In this document: positions 3,057 to 10,589 of the stretch, one piece after another
How the letters are laid out: the number at the start of each line of letters is the position of its first letter
Numbering within the stretch: the first letter of the stretch is position 1
IMG/VR virus record: IMGVR_UViG_3300009285_009299
Span: 1-23,643 of that record
Length of the DNA: 23,643 nucleotides
Direction: 5' to 3' (one strand)
DNA from: a virus
Notes under the pieces: model-generated
Database searches by the model: none
Seen by the model: only the letters and a program-made list of their open reading frames with translations
What the model was told of the DNA's origin: nothing
Program-made: the position numbers and the translations under genes

Positions 3057-3418
3057 TCACCCAGGCCGACTACCTCGCGATGCTTCAGCGCATGGCCCCA
3101 AAAGCCCCGCCGCCAGCCACGCCACAGAAGCCGGGCACCATCGAGCACGAGCGCGACCTGCACGAGCAAATCCGCGCCGAATGCATTCACCGGGGCTGGC
3201 TTGCATTTCACGGCAGCATGGCCCACGCAACCCACCGCACCATTGGCGAGCCCGATTTCGTGATTCTGCGCGACACCGGGCGCTTGCTGCTGGTCGAGGC
3301 CAAGGCCCGCCAGGGCAAGCTGAACACCGAGCAACTGGCCCTCAGAGCCTGGGCCGAGAAACTCGGCCACCAAGTTCACATCGTCAGAAGTTTTCAGGAA
3401 TTCCTTGCAATATTATGA
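3053..3418 (+). CDS. VRR-NUC domain nuclease
   Basis: 121-aa protein of the VRR-NUC branch of the PD-(D/E)XK nuclease superfamily. After an N-terminal Pro-rich part, a helix with EHERDLHEQI is followed by the catalytic core. The core has G-E-P-D-F-V (about 72-77), then L-V-E-A-K-A (about 87-92), then a Gln-containing helix (NTEQLALRAW), as expected for the family. These single-domain forms are common in phages and are thought to act on branched or structured DNA in replication or recombination. The start is in an ATGA overlap with the preceding frame. The partners are probably the replication genes on the other strand. Confidence 0.88.
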   Translation: MITQADYLAMLQRMAPKAPPPATPQKPGTIEHERDLHEQIRAECIHRGWLAFHGSMAHATHRTIGEPDFVILRDTGRLLLVEAKARQGKLNTEQLALRAWAEKLGHQVHIVRSFQEFLAIL

Positions 3419-3479
3419 ACGAACCCACAATGACAAAAGCCTGCCTCAAAGATCAATTCAACCTCAACTAGAAAACACC

Positions 3480-4340
3480 ATGACAAACATCAGATACAAA
3501 CAAACGGATGGTCAAGTGACAATCACCGGCTATAACGGAGCAGAAAACCAGCTTATCATCCCGAGTCTCATCGACGGCCTACCCGTCACCACCATCGGAG
3601 ACTGGGCGTTCGCCAGCTGCACGGGCCTGACCAGCCTCACGATCCCGAACAGCGTCACCACCATCGGAGACTGGGCGTTCGACAGCTGCACGGGCCTGAC
3701 CAGCCTCACGATCCCGAACAGCGTCATCACCATCGGAGCCGGCGCGTTCCGAGGCTGCACGGGCCTGACCAGCCTCACGCTGACAGACGGCCTCACCACC
3801 ATCGGAAACTGGGCGTTCGACAACTGCACGGGCCTGACCAGCCTCACGATCCCGAACAGCGTCACCACCATCGGAAACTGGGCGTTCGACAACTGCACGG
3901 GCCTGACCAGCCTCACGCTGACAGACGGCCTCACCACCATCGGAGCCGGCGCGTTCCGAGACTGCACGGGCCTGACCAGCCTCACGATCCCGAACAGCGT
4001 CGCCACCATCGGAGCCGGGGCGTTCCGAGACTGCACGGGCCTGACCAGCCTCACGCTGACAGACGGCCTCACCACCATCGGAGACTGGGCGTTCGCCAAC
4101 TGCACGGGCCTGACCAGCCTCACGATCCCGAACAGCGTCACCACCATCGGAGACTGGGCGTTCGACAACTGCACGGGGCTGACCAGCCTCACGATCCCGA
4201 ACAGCGTCACCACCATCGGAGACTGGGCGTTCGACAACTGCACGGGCCTGACCAGCCTCACGATCCCGAACAGCCTCACCACCATCGGAGTCAGGGCGTT
4301 CCGAGGCTGCAGGGGGCTACCAAACAACCCGGCCCCATAA
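3480..4340 (+). CDS. BspA-type leucine-rich-repeat protein
   Basis: 286-aa repeat protein. After a 35-residue N-terminal part come ten full 23-residue repeats and one partial repeat (from residue 36). The consensus is V/L-T-T-I-G-x-x-A-F-x-x-C-T-G-L-T-S-L-T, ending IPNS or LTDG. This is the BspA/TpLRR family, which makes curved solenoids for binding other proteins or surfaces. No signal peptide or membrane helix is visible, so it is probably cytoplasmic or virion-associated. Repeats come in module types (WAF-D/A versus GAF-R; IPNS versus LTDG) shuffled in different orders, with near-identical DNA. The ATG at 3480 is chosen because the longer frame starts inside the VRR-NUC gene. It is the last plus-strand gene before the convergent minus block. 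Confidence 0.85.
   Translation: MTNIRYKQTDGQVTITGYNGAENQLIIPSLIDGLPVTTIGDWAFASCTGLTSLTIPNSVTTIGDWAFDSCTGLTSLTIPNSVITIGAGAFRGCTGLTSLTLTDGLTTIGNWAFDNCTGLTSLTIPNSVTTIGNWAFDNCTGLTSLTLTDGLTTIGAGAFRDCTGLTSLTIPNSVATIGAGAFRDCTGLTSLTLTDGLTTIGDWAFANCTGLTSLTIPNSVTTIGDWAFDNCTGLTSLTIPNSVTTIGDWAFDNCTGLTSLTIPNSLTTIGVRAFRGCRGLPNNPAP
3585..4337 (+). repeat. 69-bp coding tandem repeats (10 full + 1 partial)
   Basis: Ten 69-bp units (3585-4274) and a 63-bp partial encode the leucine-rich repeats. Most copies differ only where the module types differ, such as GACTGGGCGTTCGACAAC against GCCGGCGCGTTCCGAGAC. Long identical stretches between copies favour expansion, contraction and shuffling by recombination. Confidence 0.9.
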
Positions 4341-4869: not shown

Positions 4870-6258
4870 TTAGAACCCTCGCAGCTTCCGAATCGCCACC
4901 TGACGCGACTGGTAGTGCACCAGATAGCGCAAACAGTCGGCCAGGTCATCGCCACCATGCCCGTCCTCATCACAGTCCACCTTCAGCACGTCCTCCGGCC
5001 GATTCGGATCATGCTGCATCGCCGGCAACGTCTCCACCAGCCGCGCGCATCGCCCCAGAATGAACAGAGACGGACGAATCCCGGCATCCGGATCCCCAAG
5101 CCGCCGGAGAATCTCAGCCCAGCCCTGAACCCGGTCAGTATTCGCGCACCCGAACCGCAACCCCAAGGCCGAATACTGCCCGGCGATGGTTCCCCCGTCA
5201 CTTTGCCGGCTGAAACAGTCCGCCCCGGCGGCCAGGCGCCGGAGGCTCTCGACGGCCAGGCCATGCCGCTTGAGCATCGCCACGATCCCCGCGGCATGCC
5301 GCTGGGGCAGCCACAGCCGCTCCGCGTGCTCGTCCACCACGAACACGTTGCCGTCGCCATCCGTGCATGCCAGCAGAAACGCCGTGTAGTGAGTGAACCC
5401 ATAGTCCAGCGCCCCGAACCACTCCCGCGCCCGGGTCTCATCAAACGCAGCGACCACGTGGACATCGCGCCGAAAACTCGTGAAGTATTGCCCGGCCGCG
5501 ATGTCCCAGTCCCCATCAAACCAGGCTCGCTTCTGCCACCCCGTCAGGTTTTCCAGAACGTGCCGATACTCAGCATTGCAGTAGGAGTTGTCAGTCACGC
5601 GCGCCGCGATAAACCGGGTCTCAATTTCCTGCCCGCGCTGCCACGGGGAAATAAACTTCGCCCGATACCACGCGTGCCCCACACCGCCGGGGTTGCTCGT
5701 GCTGTAAATCCGCGGCCGCCAGTTCGCCTTGCTGGTGCGGCAGCAGGTGGAGATGTCCACGTACTTACGGTAGGTGAGCGTGGTTGCCTCCTCGATCCCG
5801 ACCACGTCATATTCAAGCCCCAGATAGGCATCAATATCCGACTCCTTCTGAAAGTGCCCGGCCACGATCCTCGAACCGTTCGCAAAGGTCACCACCCCGC
5901 GATGCGCCGCAAAGTCATGCTTTGTCCGCGAAAAAATCCGCCGCCGAAGGTCATCCAGGTTTTCCAGGTTCGCCTTGCCCACCTTCCGCAGCAGCAGGCA
6001 CTTCAACCCCGGCACCCGTTGGCAATCATCCCCGCCCATCTGGGCCAGCAGCCAGTGGGACTTGCCGCCCCCGCGGGCCCCACCATAGCCAATCGCCGTT
6101 GGCCCGCCTGGCTCATCACAAGCCCGCGCCGCCGCCGAGGCCAAAAGCTGCTTCGGTTGCAGCACAATTCCACGCACCAGCAAGTTCTCAGTTTGGTCCT
6201 GCGGACACCCGGCCTCCTGGGCCGCGCGCGCGTAAAGTTCGTAGTCGCTCGTTTGCAT
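4870..6258 (-). CDS. terL: Phage terminase large subunit
   Basis: The motor-nuclease that pumps phage DNA into the procapsid through the portal and cuts it. The ATPase half has a Walker A-like loop (GGARGGGKS, about residues 59-67), a Walker B with catalytic Glu (VVGIEE, about 152-157) and a coupling motif (STSNPGG). The nuclease half has an RNase-H-like first Asp (GALDYGF) and a late Asp pair (GGDDLADCLRY). The length (462 aa) is typical. The start at 6258 gives an N-terminus (MQTSDYELYARA) like relatives. An upstream in-frame ATG at 6288 overlaps the stop of the preceding gene (ATGA) and would add ten hydrophobic residues. Neither start has a clear ribosome site. Confidence 0.95.
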   Translation of the reverse strand: MQTSDYELYARAAQEAGCPQDQTENLLVRGIVLQPKQLLASAAARACDEPGGPTAIGYGGARGGGKSHWLLAQMGGDDCQRVPGLKCLLLRKVGKANLENLDDLRRRIFSRTKHDFAAHRGVVTFANGSRIVAGHFQKESDIDAYLGLEYDVVGIEEATTLTYRKYVDISTCCRTSKANWRPRIYSTSNPGGVGHAWYRAKFISPWQRGQEIETRFIAARVTDNSYCNAEYRHVLENLTGWQKRAWFDGDWDIAAGQYFTSFRRDVHVVAAFDETRAREWFGALDYGFTHYTAFLLACTDGDGNVFVVDEHAERLWLPQRHAAGIVAMLKRHGLAVESLRRLAAGADCFSRQSDGGTIAGQYSALGLRFGCANTDRVQGWAEILRRLGDPDAGIRPSLFILGRCARLVETLPAMQHDPNRPEDVLKVDCDEDGHGGDDLADCLRYLVHYQSRQVAIRKLRGF

Positions 6259-6284
6259 GGCTAAAAAAACCAGAAGGAACAGCA

Positions 6285-6569
6285 TCATAGGTCACACCAA
6301 ACTTGACCGCGTGCGCATAGCTCTCGAATCGCCCCCAGCTCAGTTTCCGCAGTGACCAGAAGCCCCATTTGCTCAAGCCGCATCCCGTAGCGGGCAATGT
6401 CCTCAAGCGCAGTATCAGTCACGGAGATCACCGCACACCACGGACGATCTCGGCGCGCCATCCCACGGCTCCGAAACGTCCAGATATGGTGCTTGCGCTT
6501 GAACGCCGCCACGCGCTGCCGCCGACTCAAGCCCGTTCGCGGAACCTCAAAAAGCATCGGCGTCCTCAT
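6285..6569 (-). CDS. Small unknown protein in terminase operon (94 aa)
   Basis: 94-aa unknown protein. The N-terminal half is basic (RRQRVAAFKRKHH) and has several Trp. The C-terminal half is a mixed helix (TETELGAIRELCARG). No zinc pairs or membrane segment are seen. Its start overlaps the stop of the zinc-ribbon gene by four bases, and its own stop overlaps the first possible terminase start, so it belongs to a tightly coupled set. The basic N-terminus would suit DNA binding, but this is a guess. Confidence 0.65.
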   Translation of the reverse strand: MRTPMLFEVPRTGLSRRQRVAAFKRKHHIWTFRSRGMARRDRPWCAVISVTDTALEDIARYGMRLEQMGLLVTAETELGAIRELCARGQVWCDL

Positions 6570-6775: not shown

Positions 6776-7320
6776 ACCTCGGCGTCCTTCGCGCTCGCCG
6801 CCTTAGCCAGTTCAGCCTTTATCCCCCGAAGCGTTTCCCCAGCCTGCGTCAAGCCCAACACTACGCGACTATAATCCGCGCACCGCCGATACCGCACATC
6901 AAACCGAGTACAGCCAGGTTCCTTGGCCAGTTGCCCCTTGCCGCACATCCCGGCGGCCGTCATCCGAGCATTAGCCCCGCTCACACCATCCAGCGCCGCC
7001 GCCGCGTAAAGGTCAGACAGCGAAAACGGCTCATTCAGCCCCGCAATAACCCGCCGAACCTTCGCGCTCTGGCTATTTTCACGCCCGTCACGAGAGGGCC
7101 GGCCTCTGCCACGCACAGCAGCCCGTTTGACCCGGTTTGACCCTGTTTGACCCAGGCTACCCACGGAGGCCACAGCCACCTCGCTGGGGCCAGTGCCCGG
7201 CACACGCCCCGAAAAGTCAGCAGTCTCAGACCCAAACTTTTCCAGCCCGCGTAACAGGGCCATCAGGTCAGCAATCCGGTTCTGCACCGCCTCAATCACC
7301 TCAGCAATACACGCCTTCAT
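6772..7320 (-). CDS. Putative DNA-binding protein with winged-helix-like C-terminus
   Basis: 182-aa protein following the small terminase gene. The N-terminus (about 1-30) is a helix. The middle is disordered, Gly/Ser/Arg-rich, and contains the product of a 10-bp DNA repeat (7125-7153). The C-terminal part looks like a winged helix: a helix with FSLSDLYAAAA, a second helix, then GKGQLAKEPGCTRFDVRY as a possible wing. It is coupled by ATGA overlaps on both sides. A role in packaging-site recognition or regulation would fit its place, but no family was recognised. Confidence 0.6.
   Translation of the reverse strand: MKACIAEVIEAVQNRIADLMALLRGLEKFGSETADFSGRVPGTGPSEVAVASVGSLGQTGSNRVKRAAVRGRGRPSRDGRENSQSAKVRRVIAGLNEPFSLSDLYAAAALDGVSGANARMTAAGMCGKGQLAKEPGCTRFDVRYRRCADYSRVVLGLTQAGETLRGIKAELAKAASAKDAEV
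7125..7153. repeat. Three 10-bp-phased direct repeats
   Basis: GTTTGACCC occurs at 7125, 7135 and 7145, exactly 10 bp apart, so all copies face the same side of the helix. They lie inside the gene after the small terminase. Such phased sites can be protein-binding iterons. Confidence 0.7.
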
Positions 7321-7976
7321 TCACTCTCCTTTGGTTCTTCGGGCCGGGATTGGTCCGAAATCATCGCGGGACTTCCCGCATCGCAAATCGCCCCGCCCGG
7401 AATAGTTCCAGGAATATTTCCCGCCGCCGGCGCCACGCCATTCACAGCCGCCACCCCATAGACCTTCGCAATCGCCGCCGCGACCTCCACTCGAATTGGC
7501 TCGCCATCAGCTCCGGTTAGCTCCCCACGCTCCGTGGCCAAGCCCGTCGCCAACCGCCCCAGTTTCGAGCACACTTCGAGCAGCCGGTTTATGTCGGAAA
7601 GGCTTACACCACGCCGCTTTAGCTTCAAAATCCGAGCAATTTCCTGCCGCGCAAGCTCAAGTCCCTTACTCGCAGCCTCCCACTCAGCCGACCGCAGAAC
7701 CTCAACACGCTTGGCCCATTCGGCAGGCATTTCACCGACAACACGCTCAGCCTTAACAAGCTGCACAGCAAGCAAGTGAGACTGCCAAGCAGAAATGCGC
7801 CGCGGCCAGGTCCACTTTCGGCTAAATCGCTCGACAGTTGTTTTCGGGAGGCCGCACTCAGCCGCCGCCAAGCCGTGCGACCTTCGCTCGCCGAGGCCAA
7901 GGTAGGCAACGAAGGAGCCAAAGGCTTTAACCGTTTCGCCGGGCTGCTGCTCCCAAGGTTTTCGGGGTTGGCTCAT
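7317..7976 (-). CDS. terS: Terminase small subunit-like protein
   Basis: 219-aa protein resembling terminase small subunits, which recognise the packaging site and load the large subunit. The N-terminus reads E-T-V-K-A-F-G-S-F-V-A-Y-L-G-L-G-E-R-R-S followed by a helix-turn-helix-like part (LAAAECGLPKTTVERFSRKW) and W-x-x-R-I-S-A-W. Then comes a long helical oligomerisation region (about 70-160) and a flexible tail. It starts at the ATG at 7976; further upstream the frame runs into the repeat-rich control region. A GGTGCA hexamer (7982-7987) lies immediately upstream of the start, suggesting regulation by that array. There is no clear ribosome site. The end overlaps the next gene by ATGA. Confidence 0.75.
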   Translation of the reverse strand: MSQPRKPWEQQPGETVKAFGSFVAYLGLGERRSHGLAAAECGLPKTTVERFSRKWTWPRRISAWQSHLLAVQLVKAERVVGEMPAEWAKRVEVLRSAEWEAASKGLELARQEIARILKLKRRGVSLSDINRLLEVCSKLGRLATGLATERGELTGADGEPIRVEVAAAIAKVYGVAAVNGVAPAAGNIPGTIPGGAICDAGSPAMISDQSRPEEPKESE

Positions 7977-7998
7977 GGAATGGTGCAGAAAGTATTTT

Positions 7999-8025
7999 GG
8001 GGTATTTGAGGGGGTAGGGGGTAAT
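7999..8025 (+). other. G-run tract
   Basis: The plus strand has GGGG, GGGGG and GGGGG runs in close order just left of the long hairpin, with a further GGGG upstream near 7964. With four runs this could form a G-quadruplex, but the outer run is far away. It adds to the unusual structure of the control region. Confidence 0.4.
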
Positions 8026-8029
8026 GCAT

Positions 8030-8083
8030 GGTGCAAATAATAACCCCCTCTCTCTCTCTAAAGAGAGAGGGGTTATTTGCACC
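8030..8083. repeat. Long bulged hairpin in the control region
   Basis: GGTGCAAATAA (8030-8040) pairs with TTATTTGCACC (8073-8083). Inside, CCCCTCTCTC pairs with GAGAGAGGGG, leaving a 4-nt bulge on the left arm. The outer ends are iteron hexamers. It lacks a T run, so it is less like a simple terminator and more like a protein-binding or origin structure. Confidence 0.75.
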
Positions 8084-8174
8084 GCATAAATGCACCAGTG
8101 CAGATATTCTGCACCAGGATAGTTTTTGCACCATTTCTGCACCACTCGCAATTTTGAGAAAAGGGAGCATGGCT

Positions 8175-10232
8175 TTAGGGAGTTGACTCGACCAGCGAGT
8201 AGGTTCGGAAGTGCTTGTCGTAGGCCAGACGGCCACGAAGATCGGAGAAGAGATCCTTGGCTTTACGCTCGCCACAACCAGCCACCGCCTGGACGCGTTC
8301 AAGGCATTGGGCGTAGGAGAGGTGTTCGCCGCGGATATCGGCCAGGAAAGCCTGGGGATCAAAAGAGACCGGCGGGCGGCCTCGGGGCCCCTCGCCAGCC
8401 GGTTCATCAGGCGGCGCGGGCGGCGCGACCTGGCGCCAGAAAATACCGGCATCGGAGTGCTCGAGCCAGACAGAGGTCGTAAACTGGCCGAGGAGGTCCA
8501 AAGCGCCCGCCCGGCGGCCACGTTTGCCGAACTGAAGCTCGTAGAGATTTTCGCCACGCTTAAGAAGCGTGCAGGTAGCGCGCGGCCAGTTTGTCAGGAT
8601 CGAACTGCCCAAGCCCATGTAGCTATAGTCGGTCTTAGTCCAGCCCTTGCGGCTCTTTGGGTCGGCTGAGGGCTTGCCGGTATGGTGCATCATCATCCAG
8701 CAGGCCCCGGATGCCTCAGTGATCGGCCCCAGGCCGCCACAAAGGAAGTCCGAGCACTCTTTCTGGTTATTGATGTCCGCGCCGAGGAACGTGTAAAGCG
8801 GGTCCAGCCAGACCAGGTCAGGGTGATGCCGGTCGATCAGCCGCCGCACCACGGGCAGGAAATTAGCGCCCGTATGCGTACGCTCCCGGATGATGACAAG
8901 GTTGCGCTTCAACTCGCGCGCCACGTCGCCCGCGGTCGAGGCCGTCAGGACGCCCATGCCTGACAGAACACCCTGCAGCATCTCCGAGCAGTCCCCCAAG
9001 TCATTCTCGTGCTGGATAATCAGCGATTTGAGTGGCCGCACCGGCGCGACGCCAAAGAAGGCGCGCGCCAGGCCCCAGTGAATAGCGGCCTGAACCGAAA
9101 GGGCGGATTTCCCAACACCAGACTGGCCAATCCACATGCAGGCGCTCCCGCGCGAGAGCCAGCGCCGGCCGAGGATGCAGTCAGCATCGGCAGCCGGGTC
9201 GAAGGCCAGCATCTCGGCCAGCGTGATTTCCTGTCCCAGCCCGGCCGCGTCCTTATCCGCCAGCCAATCCAGGAAAGAGGCCGCCCCAATATTCACAGCC
9301 AGCAACTCCTGCCGCCGATTAAACCGGACGCAATTCGGCAGCCGTGAAAGACGGGAAGGGTTCTTGTTCTTCGCGTCCAGGCCATACGGGGCGAAGTGCT
9401 CGAAAAGCACCTTCACCCGGGCGTCATATTCAGCGCGGTCCTTCGCCTCGATCTTCACCCACGCATGAACGGACTTTCCACCACTCAACACGACCACCGC
9501 GCAGGGCAAATTCGTTTGCAGGTAGAGGTTCCACTGTTCTTCCTGGCTCAGCCCGTCAAATTCCACCAAGGCATGGCGGTAATCAGTCACGTCGGCGTCC
9601 CGGCTTCCACCCACGCGCAGCGGGTTGACAGCCACGTAGATGCCCGTGCGCTCATTGCAGCGCCAGATGCCATTCGGGTCGCCAGCGCGCGCATCGAGCT
9701 TCCGCAGCCATTCCTCCCGAGATAGCGTGGGGCCATCACCATCCGGGACCTCCCGGCCGTCATCATTAAGCCGGGCCGGGACAATACGGACGCCCTCGCC
9801 CGGGGCGAAGCAAGTCCGCAAAAGAACACGCGCACCATCGAGAATGGGATCCGGCAGCTCAGCGGGCGTCGGAATCGGCGCCCTCGCCCTGGCCGGCGCA
9901 GCGGCCACGCCAGCGGCAGGCGCAGGCCGAGGCGGCACAGGCGAGGACGGCGCACCATGATCGCCCAGCCCGCCACCAAGCAAAAAACCACGGGGCTTCT
10001 GATGTGGGGTGGCCACAGCCGATTTCACCTTGTGGGCCAGCTCAGCCTCAGACCAGGGCGGGTGACACAGGGCGTTATACTCCCCCATCAGCCGCAAGAC
10101 ATCCCCAGGGTCCAGGCAGAACCCATGGGCCAGAGCCGTGGCCACCGAAAACGTCTGGTCATGCCCGCCCTGGCCGGAAATGGCTGGCGGGCATTTAGCC
10201 AGGTATAGACGCGCGCGCTCGATAACGGGCAT
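8175..10232 (-). CDS. Primase-helicase replication protein (AEP primase + RepA-type ATPase)
   Basis: 685-aa multidomain replication protein. At about 1-75 is a primase-associated helical domain (ISGQGGHD; PPWSEAELAHK). Next is an archaeo-eukaryotic-type primase core with V-E-F-D-G (about 223-227), S-G-G-K-S-V-H-A-W (about 250-258) and S-R-L-S-R-L-P-N (about 293-300). At about 350-560 is a RecA-fold helicase of the RepA/AAA_25 type with Walker A GQSGVGKS (about 369-376), Walker B LVWLDP (about 472-477) and MMMHHTGK. A small winged-helix-like domain ends the protein. It probably unwinds and primes phage DNA. The ATG at 10232 has a GGAGG site; an earlier ATG at 10307 is possible. The iteron array lies just downstream. 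Confidence 0.9.
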   Translation of the reverse strand: MPVIERARLYLAKCPPAISGQGGHDQTFSVATALAHGFCLDPGDVLRLMGEYNALCHPPWSEAELAHKVKSAVATPHQKPRGFLLGGGLGDHGAPSSPVPPRPAPAAGVAAAPARARAPIPTPAELPDPILDGARVLLRTCFAPGEGVRIVPARLNDDGREVPDGDGPTLSREEWLRKLDARAGDPNGIWRCNERTGIYVAVNPLRVGGSRDADVTDYRHALVEFDGLSQEEQWNLYLQTNLPCAVVVLSGGKSVHAWVKIEAKDRAEYDARVKVLFEHFAPYGLDAKNKNPSRLSRLPNCVRFNRRQELLAVNIGAASFLDWLADKDAAGLGQEITLAEMLAFDPAADADCILGRRWLSRGSACMWIGQSGVGKSALSVQAAIHWGLARAFFGVAPVRPLKSLIIQHENDLGDCSEMLQGVLSGMGVLTASTAGDVARELKRNLVIIRERTHTGANFLPVVRRLIDRHHPDLVWLDPLYTFLGADINNQKECSDFLCGGLGPITEASGACWMMMHHTGKPSADPKSRKGWTKTDYSYMGLGSSILTNWPRATCTLLKRGENLYELQFGKRGRRAGALDLLGQFTTSVWLEHSDAGIFWRQVAPPAPPDEPAGEGPRGRPPVSFDPQAFLADIRGEHLSYAQCLERVQAVAGCGERKAKDLFSDLRGRLAYDKHFRTYSLVESTP

Positions 10233-10317
10233 CACGGCACGGACCTCCAGCAGCAGCGCCCCAGAGCCACCACCCACGCACAGAAGGCCGCTGGCACGGC
10301 CACGCATCCAGCAGCGC

Positions 10318-10494
10318 TCACAACAGCCTAATCTCCAGCCGGGACAAGGATTCCAGCACAGCCTTCATGCACGCGATCTCATGTTCAGCCAGGCGCCCAT
10401 CCATTTTTCCATCAAGGATACGCCGCGGGTAGACCCGCTCACGCAGGGCGATTTCCCGCTTCACACACGCAATCTGCTCATCCAGCGTTTTCAT
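10318..10494 (-). CDS. Small helical phage protein (58 aa)
   Basis: 58-aa protein starting MKTLDEQIACVKREIALRER and ending at a TGA at 10318-10320. It is almost all helix: a first helix with ACVKREIALRERVYP, then a turn (RRILDGKMDG), then a second helix (AEHEIACMKAVLESL). The pattern D-E-Q-I-A-C-V-x-R-E-I-A-x-R-x-x-V-Y-P is, from memory, frequent in small phage proteins next to replication genes; the function is unknown. A GGTGG ribosome site precedes the ATG. It lies between the tRNA and the primase-helicase. Confidence 0.75.
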   Translation of the reverse strand: MKTLDEQIACVKREIALRERVYPRRILDGKMDGRLAEHEIACMKAVLESLSRLEIRLL

Positions 10495-10510
10495 AATCCC
10501 ACCACCAAAG

Positions 10511-10584
10511 TTGCGGGGGCGGGAGTCGAACCCGCCTCCGACGGCTTATGGGGCCGTGCTGGAGCCGATCCAGTCCACCCCGCC
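10511..10584 (-). tRNA. tRNA-Met-like (anticodon CAT), atypical
   Basis: A 74-nt tRNA-like fold. The acceptor stem is GGCGGGG with CCCCGCA (six of seven pairs, G1-A73 unpaired). The anticodon stem is ACGGC/GCCGT with loop CCCATAA, so the anticodon is CAT. The variable loop has five bases, and the T arm is GCGGG-TTCGACT-CCCGC. The unpaired end of the acceptor stem and the GCGGGGTGGA/CCCCCGCAA ends resemble bacterial initiator tRNA. Oddities: the base before the anticodon is C instead of the near-universal U. The D stem only pairs in a shifted register (TGGA/TCCA). No CCA is encoded. It lies 5 nt after the helicase stop. It may be a phage tRNA, a decaying one or a tRNA-like RNA. Confidence 0.7.
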
Positions 10585-10589
10585 GAAAT

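Follow-up and report, generated by a model that had tools for sequence, protein, structure and literature searches.

The locus analysed here raises the question of what an array of repeated hexamers is doing in a stretch without a gene, between the replication and packaging genes of an uncultured phage. Origins of replication in such phages have seldom been located. The DNA (hereafter the window) is an IMG/VR record taken at its full 23,643 bp; it is classed as linear and lacks end repeats, and the gap in question occupies positions 7977–8174 on the minus strand, between the genes for a primase-helicase and the small terminase subunit (terS). An earlier note on this DNA had offered three functions for the gap: a replication origin, a packaging site or an operator cluster controlling the terminase genes. 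Comparison with related phages supports the first of these and not the second, and leaves room for the third only as a secondary role. On a basis that is computational throughout, we consider it very probable that 7977–8174 is an iteron-type replication origin which is read by the winged-helix tail of the adjoining primase-helicase.

Organization of the gap

The operon runs from right to left and encodes, in order, a Sak4-like protein, two small proteins, a DEAD/ResIII helicase and the primase-helicase, followed by the gap, terS (7317–7976, minus strand; phrog_6299, E 1e-16), two small genes and the large terminase subunit gene terL (4870–6288, minus strand; phrog_979, E 7e-21). The gap begins at the stop codon of the primase, placing it immediately 3' of the proposed initiator gene, and it is AT-rich for this genome (54% versus 39%). 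It had been described as the only large gene-free gap in the operon. A second gap does exist at 10308–10589, but because that one contains a 58-aa ORF and a tRNA-like element, 7977–8174 remains the only gap without a gene. The tRNA-like element (10511–10584, minus strand), located between the DEAD/ResIII helicase and primase genes, has a CAT anticodon; its Rfam tRNA score is 28.8 against a gathering score of 29, and ARAGORN makes no call there.

The earlier count of at least seven GGTGCA/TGCACC hexamers in about 160 bp is borne out: there are exactly seven, spanning 162 bp and starting at 7982, 8030, 8078, 8091, 8110, 8127 and 8138, out of 19 in the entire 23,643 bp. Read along the minus strand, five are forward, at 8143, 8132, 8115, 8096 and 8083 (iterons 1 to 5, at 8138–8143, 8127–8132, 8110–8115, 8091–8096 and 8078–8083), and two are reversed, at 8035 and 7987 (iterons 6 and 7, at 8030–8035 and 7982–7987, lying as exact words on the plus strand), the last of them stopping 5 bp short of the start codon of terS. 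The copies also have flanking bases in common, giving a coding-strand consensus of (T/C)GGTGCA(A/G/T)(A/T)(A/T)(A/T). Estimated by Poisson from the remainder of the window, the probability of such a cluster is about 1e-7 for GGTGCA at any position and about 2e-4 allowing for all hexamers. Among 200 dinucleotide shuffles of the 350 nt that follow the primase, none had more than 5 copies of any hexamer, compared with the 7 observed. The GGTGCA cluster is far beyond what chance would produce, and chance is excluded as its source. Elsewhere in the window, an ORF of BspA-like leucine-rich repeats (3405–4340, plus strand) lies within a region of hexamer-rich direct repeats.

A bulged, near-perfect palindrome, with its stem at 8030–8083 (minus strand), has iterons 5 and 6 as its outer arms, as the earlier note had recognized. 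It consists of an iteron, an AT-rich step, a C-tract, a TTTAGA loop, a G-tract, an AT-rich step and a reversed iteron, and as DNA the segment 8022–8091 folds with z = -11.7. The G-run tract noticed previously is also present, as three G-runs (7999–8002, 8010–8014 and 8017–8021; together 7999–8021, plus strand) between the palindrome and the last iteron. No Rfam family was matched in the gap or the rest of the window, nor in 16 related loci.

The proposed initiator

The gene that ends at the gap (8175–10307, minus strand) encodes a protein of 710 aa in which profiles, Foldseek and AlphaFold2 distinguish an AEP (PrimPol-type) primase, a hexameric helicase of the RSF1010 RepA type and a C-terminal winged-helix-like tail. 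The primase part matches phrog_2597 and PDB 6zp9 (E 0.002), while the helicase part matches AAA_25, the profile of RSF1010 RepA (1g8y, E 1.2e-18) and, by Foldseek, 1nlf and 1olo. The mean pLDDT of the AlphaFold2 model is 84. Residues 651–705 (8193–8357, minus strand), the proposed iteron binder, are modelled in the order H-H-H-E-E with pLDDT mostly 87–92, and when modelled alone this tail retains the same order of three helices and two strands (pLDDT 76). We term the tail winged-helix-like because its matches in the PDB are weak (best E 0.08, with several of them to winged-helix regulators), although the order in the model fits a winged helix. The gene adjacent to the gap encodes a predicted replication initiator by sequence and fold, with a putative DNA-binding tail by model. 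At the other end of the protein (10208–10307, minus strand), residues 1–24 are disordered in the model and relatives suggest that the true start is Met34; it may be so, in which case the gap upstream of the gene would be larger.

Recurrence of the array beside related primases

With the single primase sequence of the window as query no close relatives were found, and an alignment was then needed as the query. The comparison covered a non-redundant set of 52 tail-bearing primases, window included, for which control windows were taken from the same loci. At least six copies of one hexamer occur in the 300 nt 3' of the primase in 20 of these 52 relatives, compared with 14 of 3849 control windows; at a threshold of at least five copies the figures are 29 of 52 and 86 of 3849. 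At the 3' end of the primase ORF itself the same thresholds are reached in 0/52 and 1/52, respectively, and in the stretch 300–600 nt downstream in 1/51 and 2/51. Since the positions flanking the 300-nt stretch behave like controls, the array belongs to the place and not to the genomes. The surrounding genes are also alike: FP_Lugh has the order Sak4, SSB, SSL2 helicase, primase, gap and RusA, a module retained in phages whose primases are related.

The repeats 3' of related primases are short and occur in both orientations, but the word varies by phage, being ACTGCA in Aster, AGCTAT in EFC-1, GGGACA in Javan355, CGGGCA in Castelnaud and ATTTCA in BCJA1. The earlier note named a lack of conserved hexamers in relatives among the findings that would refute its reading. 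GGTGCA itself is indeed not conserved, in contrast to the array, the palindrome and the position they occupy. That test needs to be reworded, because the hexamer varies while the other three persist. Five relatives (L024, L025, L026, L028 and L029) share the order seen in the window, namely iteron, ATAT, C-tract, short TA-rich loop, G-tract, ATAT and reversed iteron, and 10/52 gaps contain a C-tract/TA/G-tract core, compared with 2/2575 control windows. When the palindrome cores of these five relatives and of the window are aligned as DNA palindromes scored by RNA rules, 10 of 17 predicted pairs keep pairing with both sides changed in at least one sequence. Judged from these six sequences, the alignment shows conserved symmetry and is not evidence of an RNA. 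In three phages whose terL is 70% identical (L009–L011), a gene of its own encodes the helicase, which carries an HTH-like tail at its end; in the gap, two direct repeats are accompanied by a CCCTWTAAAG-like core, weaker in L010, and a single reversed repeat.

Where the primase has no tail, the array is absent (0/6 non-redundant relatives). In L027, L032, L033, L035 and others the primase stops right after the helicase domain, and most tail-less primases abut the next gene, often a large-terminase-like one, without an array. The link between tail and array is supported by these cases and not proven, because there are six non-redundant tail-less cases from few lineages. Some tail-bearing relatives depart from the pattern. 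About 15 of the 52 show no hexamer excess, which may reflect degenerate iterons, wrongly placed gene ends or use of another origin. The chief exception is L023, whose primase is the closest by identity (52% overall); it has the C-terminal tail and no array 3' of the primase; an opposite-strand gene appears to occupy the expected place of the gap. Its full contig (L194/L195, a 28.6-kb record) contains no iteron array anywhere, and no origin was found elsewhere in it.

Correspondence between primase tails and iteron words

Over the broad family the correlation between tail and iteron is weak (partial 0.08, with 16 of 500 permutations as high). Because covariation was weak over so diverse a family, a closer one was chosen, consisting of 72 non-redundant primases like those of Gram-positive phages. 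Among pairs in this set with core similarity of at least 0.9, mean iteron similarity is 0.39 where the tails are alike (n = 151) and 0.07 where they are unlike (n = 252), the pairs not being independent and both the pair counts and the Fisher tests ignoring shared ancestry. The core also correlates with the iterons (partial 0.26). When the recognition helix is taken as the last match in the tail, a rule by which some tails are mis-parsed (e.g. L159, L165, L178, L181 and L019), KT[V/I]RR tails go with GGGAC/GGACA words in 15/16 cases versus 3/56 others, RT[V/I]RD tails with CCGCA/GCCGC words in 15/18 versus 7/54, and RTVRNR tails with ATTTC/TTTCA words in 4/7 versus 1/65. FP_Lugh is the exception to the KT[V/I]RR rule, having an RRR helix and yet not being rich in GGGAC.

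An example is the pair L185 and L020, in which core similarity is 0.96 and tail similarity 0.55; the helix reads RRR in L185 and RNR in L020, and the words of the whole array have changed with it, being AGGGAC in L185 and ATTTCA in L020. The L185 word is also found in L114, whose tail is otherwise unlike (0.26). These associations suggest that in the Gram-positive relatives the iteron class follows the recognition helix of the tail. The tail of the window is too different for the Gram-positive classes, and since it is not alignable to the KTxRR helices its specificity was not predicted from them. Most likely the primase-helicase recognises the GGTGCA words beside its own gene.

Alternative roles of the gap

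Small terminase proteins often bind repeats near their own gene, and the gap lies directly before terS and terL, as would suit a pac/cos-type site at which the small terminase binds to initiate packaging. The iteron class, however, goes with the primase tail. Arrays follow the primase even where no relative of terS or terL is found within 3.5 kb downstream, the L024 record carries GTGCAA iterons without any match to the TerL of the window, and in FP_Lugh and EFC-1 several genes lie between the array and terS. Relatives of terS itself (L003–L008), on the other hand, have no GGTGCA array, and upstream of terS no hexamer occurs in them more than 5 times. We therefore regard a packaging site as very unlikely. 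It is also unlikely, if a little less so, that the array is primarily an operator cluster through which a repressor, or the primase itself, controls the terminase genes. The array does stand at the junction of replication and packaging genes, with iteron 7 close to the terS start codon as described above, and regulation of transcription is common among iteron initiators. On the other side, no promoter of the sigma-70-like type, the type covered by the search, was found in 7900–8300; from relative to relative the next gene varies and the array remains beside the primase; and mixed orientation around a conserved palindrome suits an origin better than a simple operator. An operator function, for example damping of terS through iteron 7, is compatible with these observations as a secondary role only.

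A third reading takes the palindrome for a transcription terminator, or for part of a folded RNA leader of terS, with the repeats incidental. On the minus strand, the palindrome and the TTATTATTT that follows it score as terminator-like (3 sites versus 0.5 expected), and the entire 198-nt gap has a strong RNA fold (z = -9.0), yet it matched no Rfam family. The iterons and AT-rich steps are outside what a terminator requires, and such a reading leaves unexplained those iterons that lie beyond the palindrome and their recurrence beside tail-bearing primases only. As the main function of the gap this is extremely improbable, while it is quite possible that the palindrome serves secondarily as a terminator of primase transcription.

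Comparison with known origins

In position and iterons the proposed origin appears to match those of SaPI/PICI elements, SCCmec and phage Sfi21, while the domain fusion of its predicted initiator and its iteron-armed palindrome differ. In PICIs the origin directly adjoins the 3' end of rep and has a set of iterons on either side of an AT-rich region (PMC6092414), and the SaPI Rep helicase recognises its origin through a C-terminal domain (PMC6092414, PMC7581432). Directly after the initiator gene the window likewise has short iterons in two sets, one of five forward and one of two reversed copies, but these flank a C-tract/G-tract palindrome with iteron arms and short AT steps where the PICI centre is described as AT-rich, and the proposed initiator joins an AEP primase and a helicase of the RSF1010 RepA type. 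The contig does not fit a PICI satellite, since genes for portal-like, major capsid and terminase proteins are found on it. SCCmec Cch2 uses its C-terminal domain to bind direct repeats that lie just 3' of the gene encoding it (PMC7581432). This pattern 2 arrangement is similar to that of the window, although the helicase belongs to another family, inverted repeats are dispensable for Cch2 binding and the primase-polymerase is encoded separately.

In the record of Streptococcus phage Sfi21, 302 bp that directly follow the gene of a putative primase are annotated as an "origin of replication". We found nine AGTAAC words there, in both orientations, around a stretch rich in AT; no stronger array occurs in the 12.7 kb examined. 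The element is reported to be an origin that infection activates (PMC6356513). The replication module (Sak4-like protein, helicase, SSB and primase) and the non-coding origin 3' of the primase (the PER element) resemble those of the window, whereas the centre is long and AT-rich and the primase and polymerase/primase proteins come from separate genes. Because the two primases have no detectable sequence similarity, Sfi21 is an analogue and the parallel a functional one.

Two further parallels come from plasmids. In the plasmid pRN1, a stem-loop directly 3' of the gene for ORF904, an AEP-helicase-winged-helix protein, is required for replication, and its authors propose the same stem-loop origin for phage BIP-1, in which iterons were looked for and dismissed as the origin (PMC4234260). 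The window too has a stem-loop directly 3' of a gene that joins AEP, helicase and winged-helix-like domains in one chain; the pRN1 helicase, however, is of SF3 and the origin has no iterons, whereas the window has iterons and a RepA/DnaB-type helicase of RecA fold. Plasmid RSF1010 encodes the relative, in sequence and fold, of the window helicase (RepA), its RepB' is an AEP primase (PMC4434180), and its oriV also combines iterons and hairpins, but the work is divided among three proteins with RepC as a separate iteron binder, and the ssi hairpins are apart from the iterons. A literature search found no iteron origins described for the family with AEP, RepA-type and winged-helix domains; as most subscription papers lay outside the search, novelty is provisional.

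Proposed mechanism and implications

A possible course of initiation at this origin would begin with the winged-helix tail binding the GGTGCA iterons that directly follow its own gene. The five forward and two reversed iterons could then load the ring helicase around the central palindrome, with two helicase rings assembling about it, while the AT-rich steps would melt and the palindrome could extrude as a hairpin. The helicase domain would unwind and the AEP domain would prime, possibly at the extruded hairpin, so that the domains would cooperate in the manner of RSF1010 RepC, RepA and RepB'. More tentatively, and with rather more doubt than belief, we suggest that this may be an unnamed and widespread class of phage origin, in which one protein combines the roles of RSF1010 RepA, RepB' and RepC, tail and iterons change as a matched pair that makes the origin phage-specific, and the palindrome extrudes as the AEP priming site.

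If the rule holds, the origin could be read from the sequence directly 3' of the gene in any phage with this type of primase. The paired change of tail and iterons between the nearly identical cores of L185 and L020 would put origin specificity within reach of a domain swap and, if true, would explain how related phages remain separate replicons, as well as the use of origin DNA as a decoy, which has been described for Sfi21.

Additional hairpins in related loci

Two other groups of hairpins were observed. In L009–L011 a hairpin with no Rfam match and absent from the window lies between the proposed origin and terS (L009 5232–5272, L010 5314–5350 and L011 5211–5253); its CCCTCCTTGGGGTCGGG centre is identical in all three, while the stems differ and still pair. 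In the Gram-positive phages L014–L022 the gap 3' of the primase contains, besides the iterons, an extra long, G+C-rich, imperfect hairpin, likewise with no Rfam match, examples of which are at about 5009–5075 in L014 and about 5150–5220 in L016.
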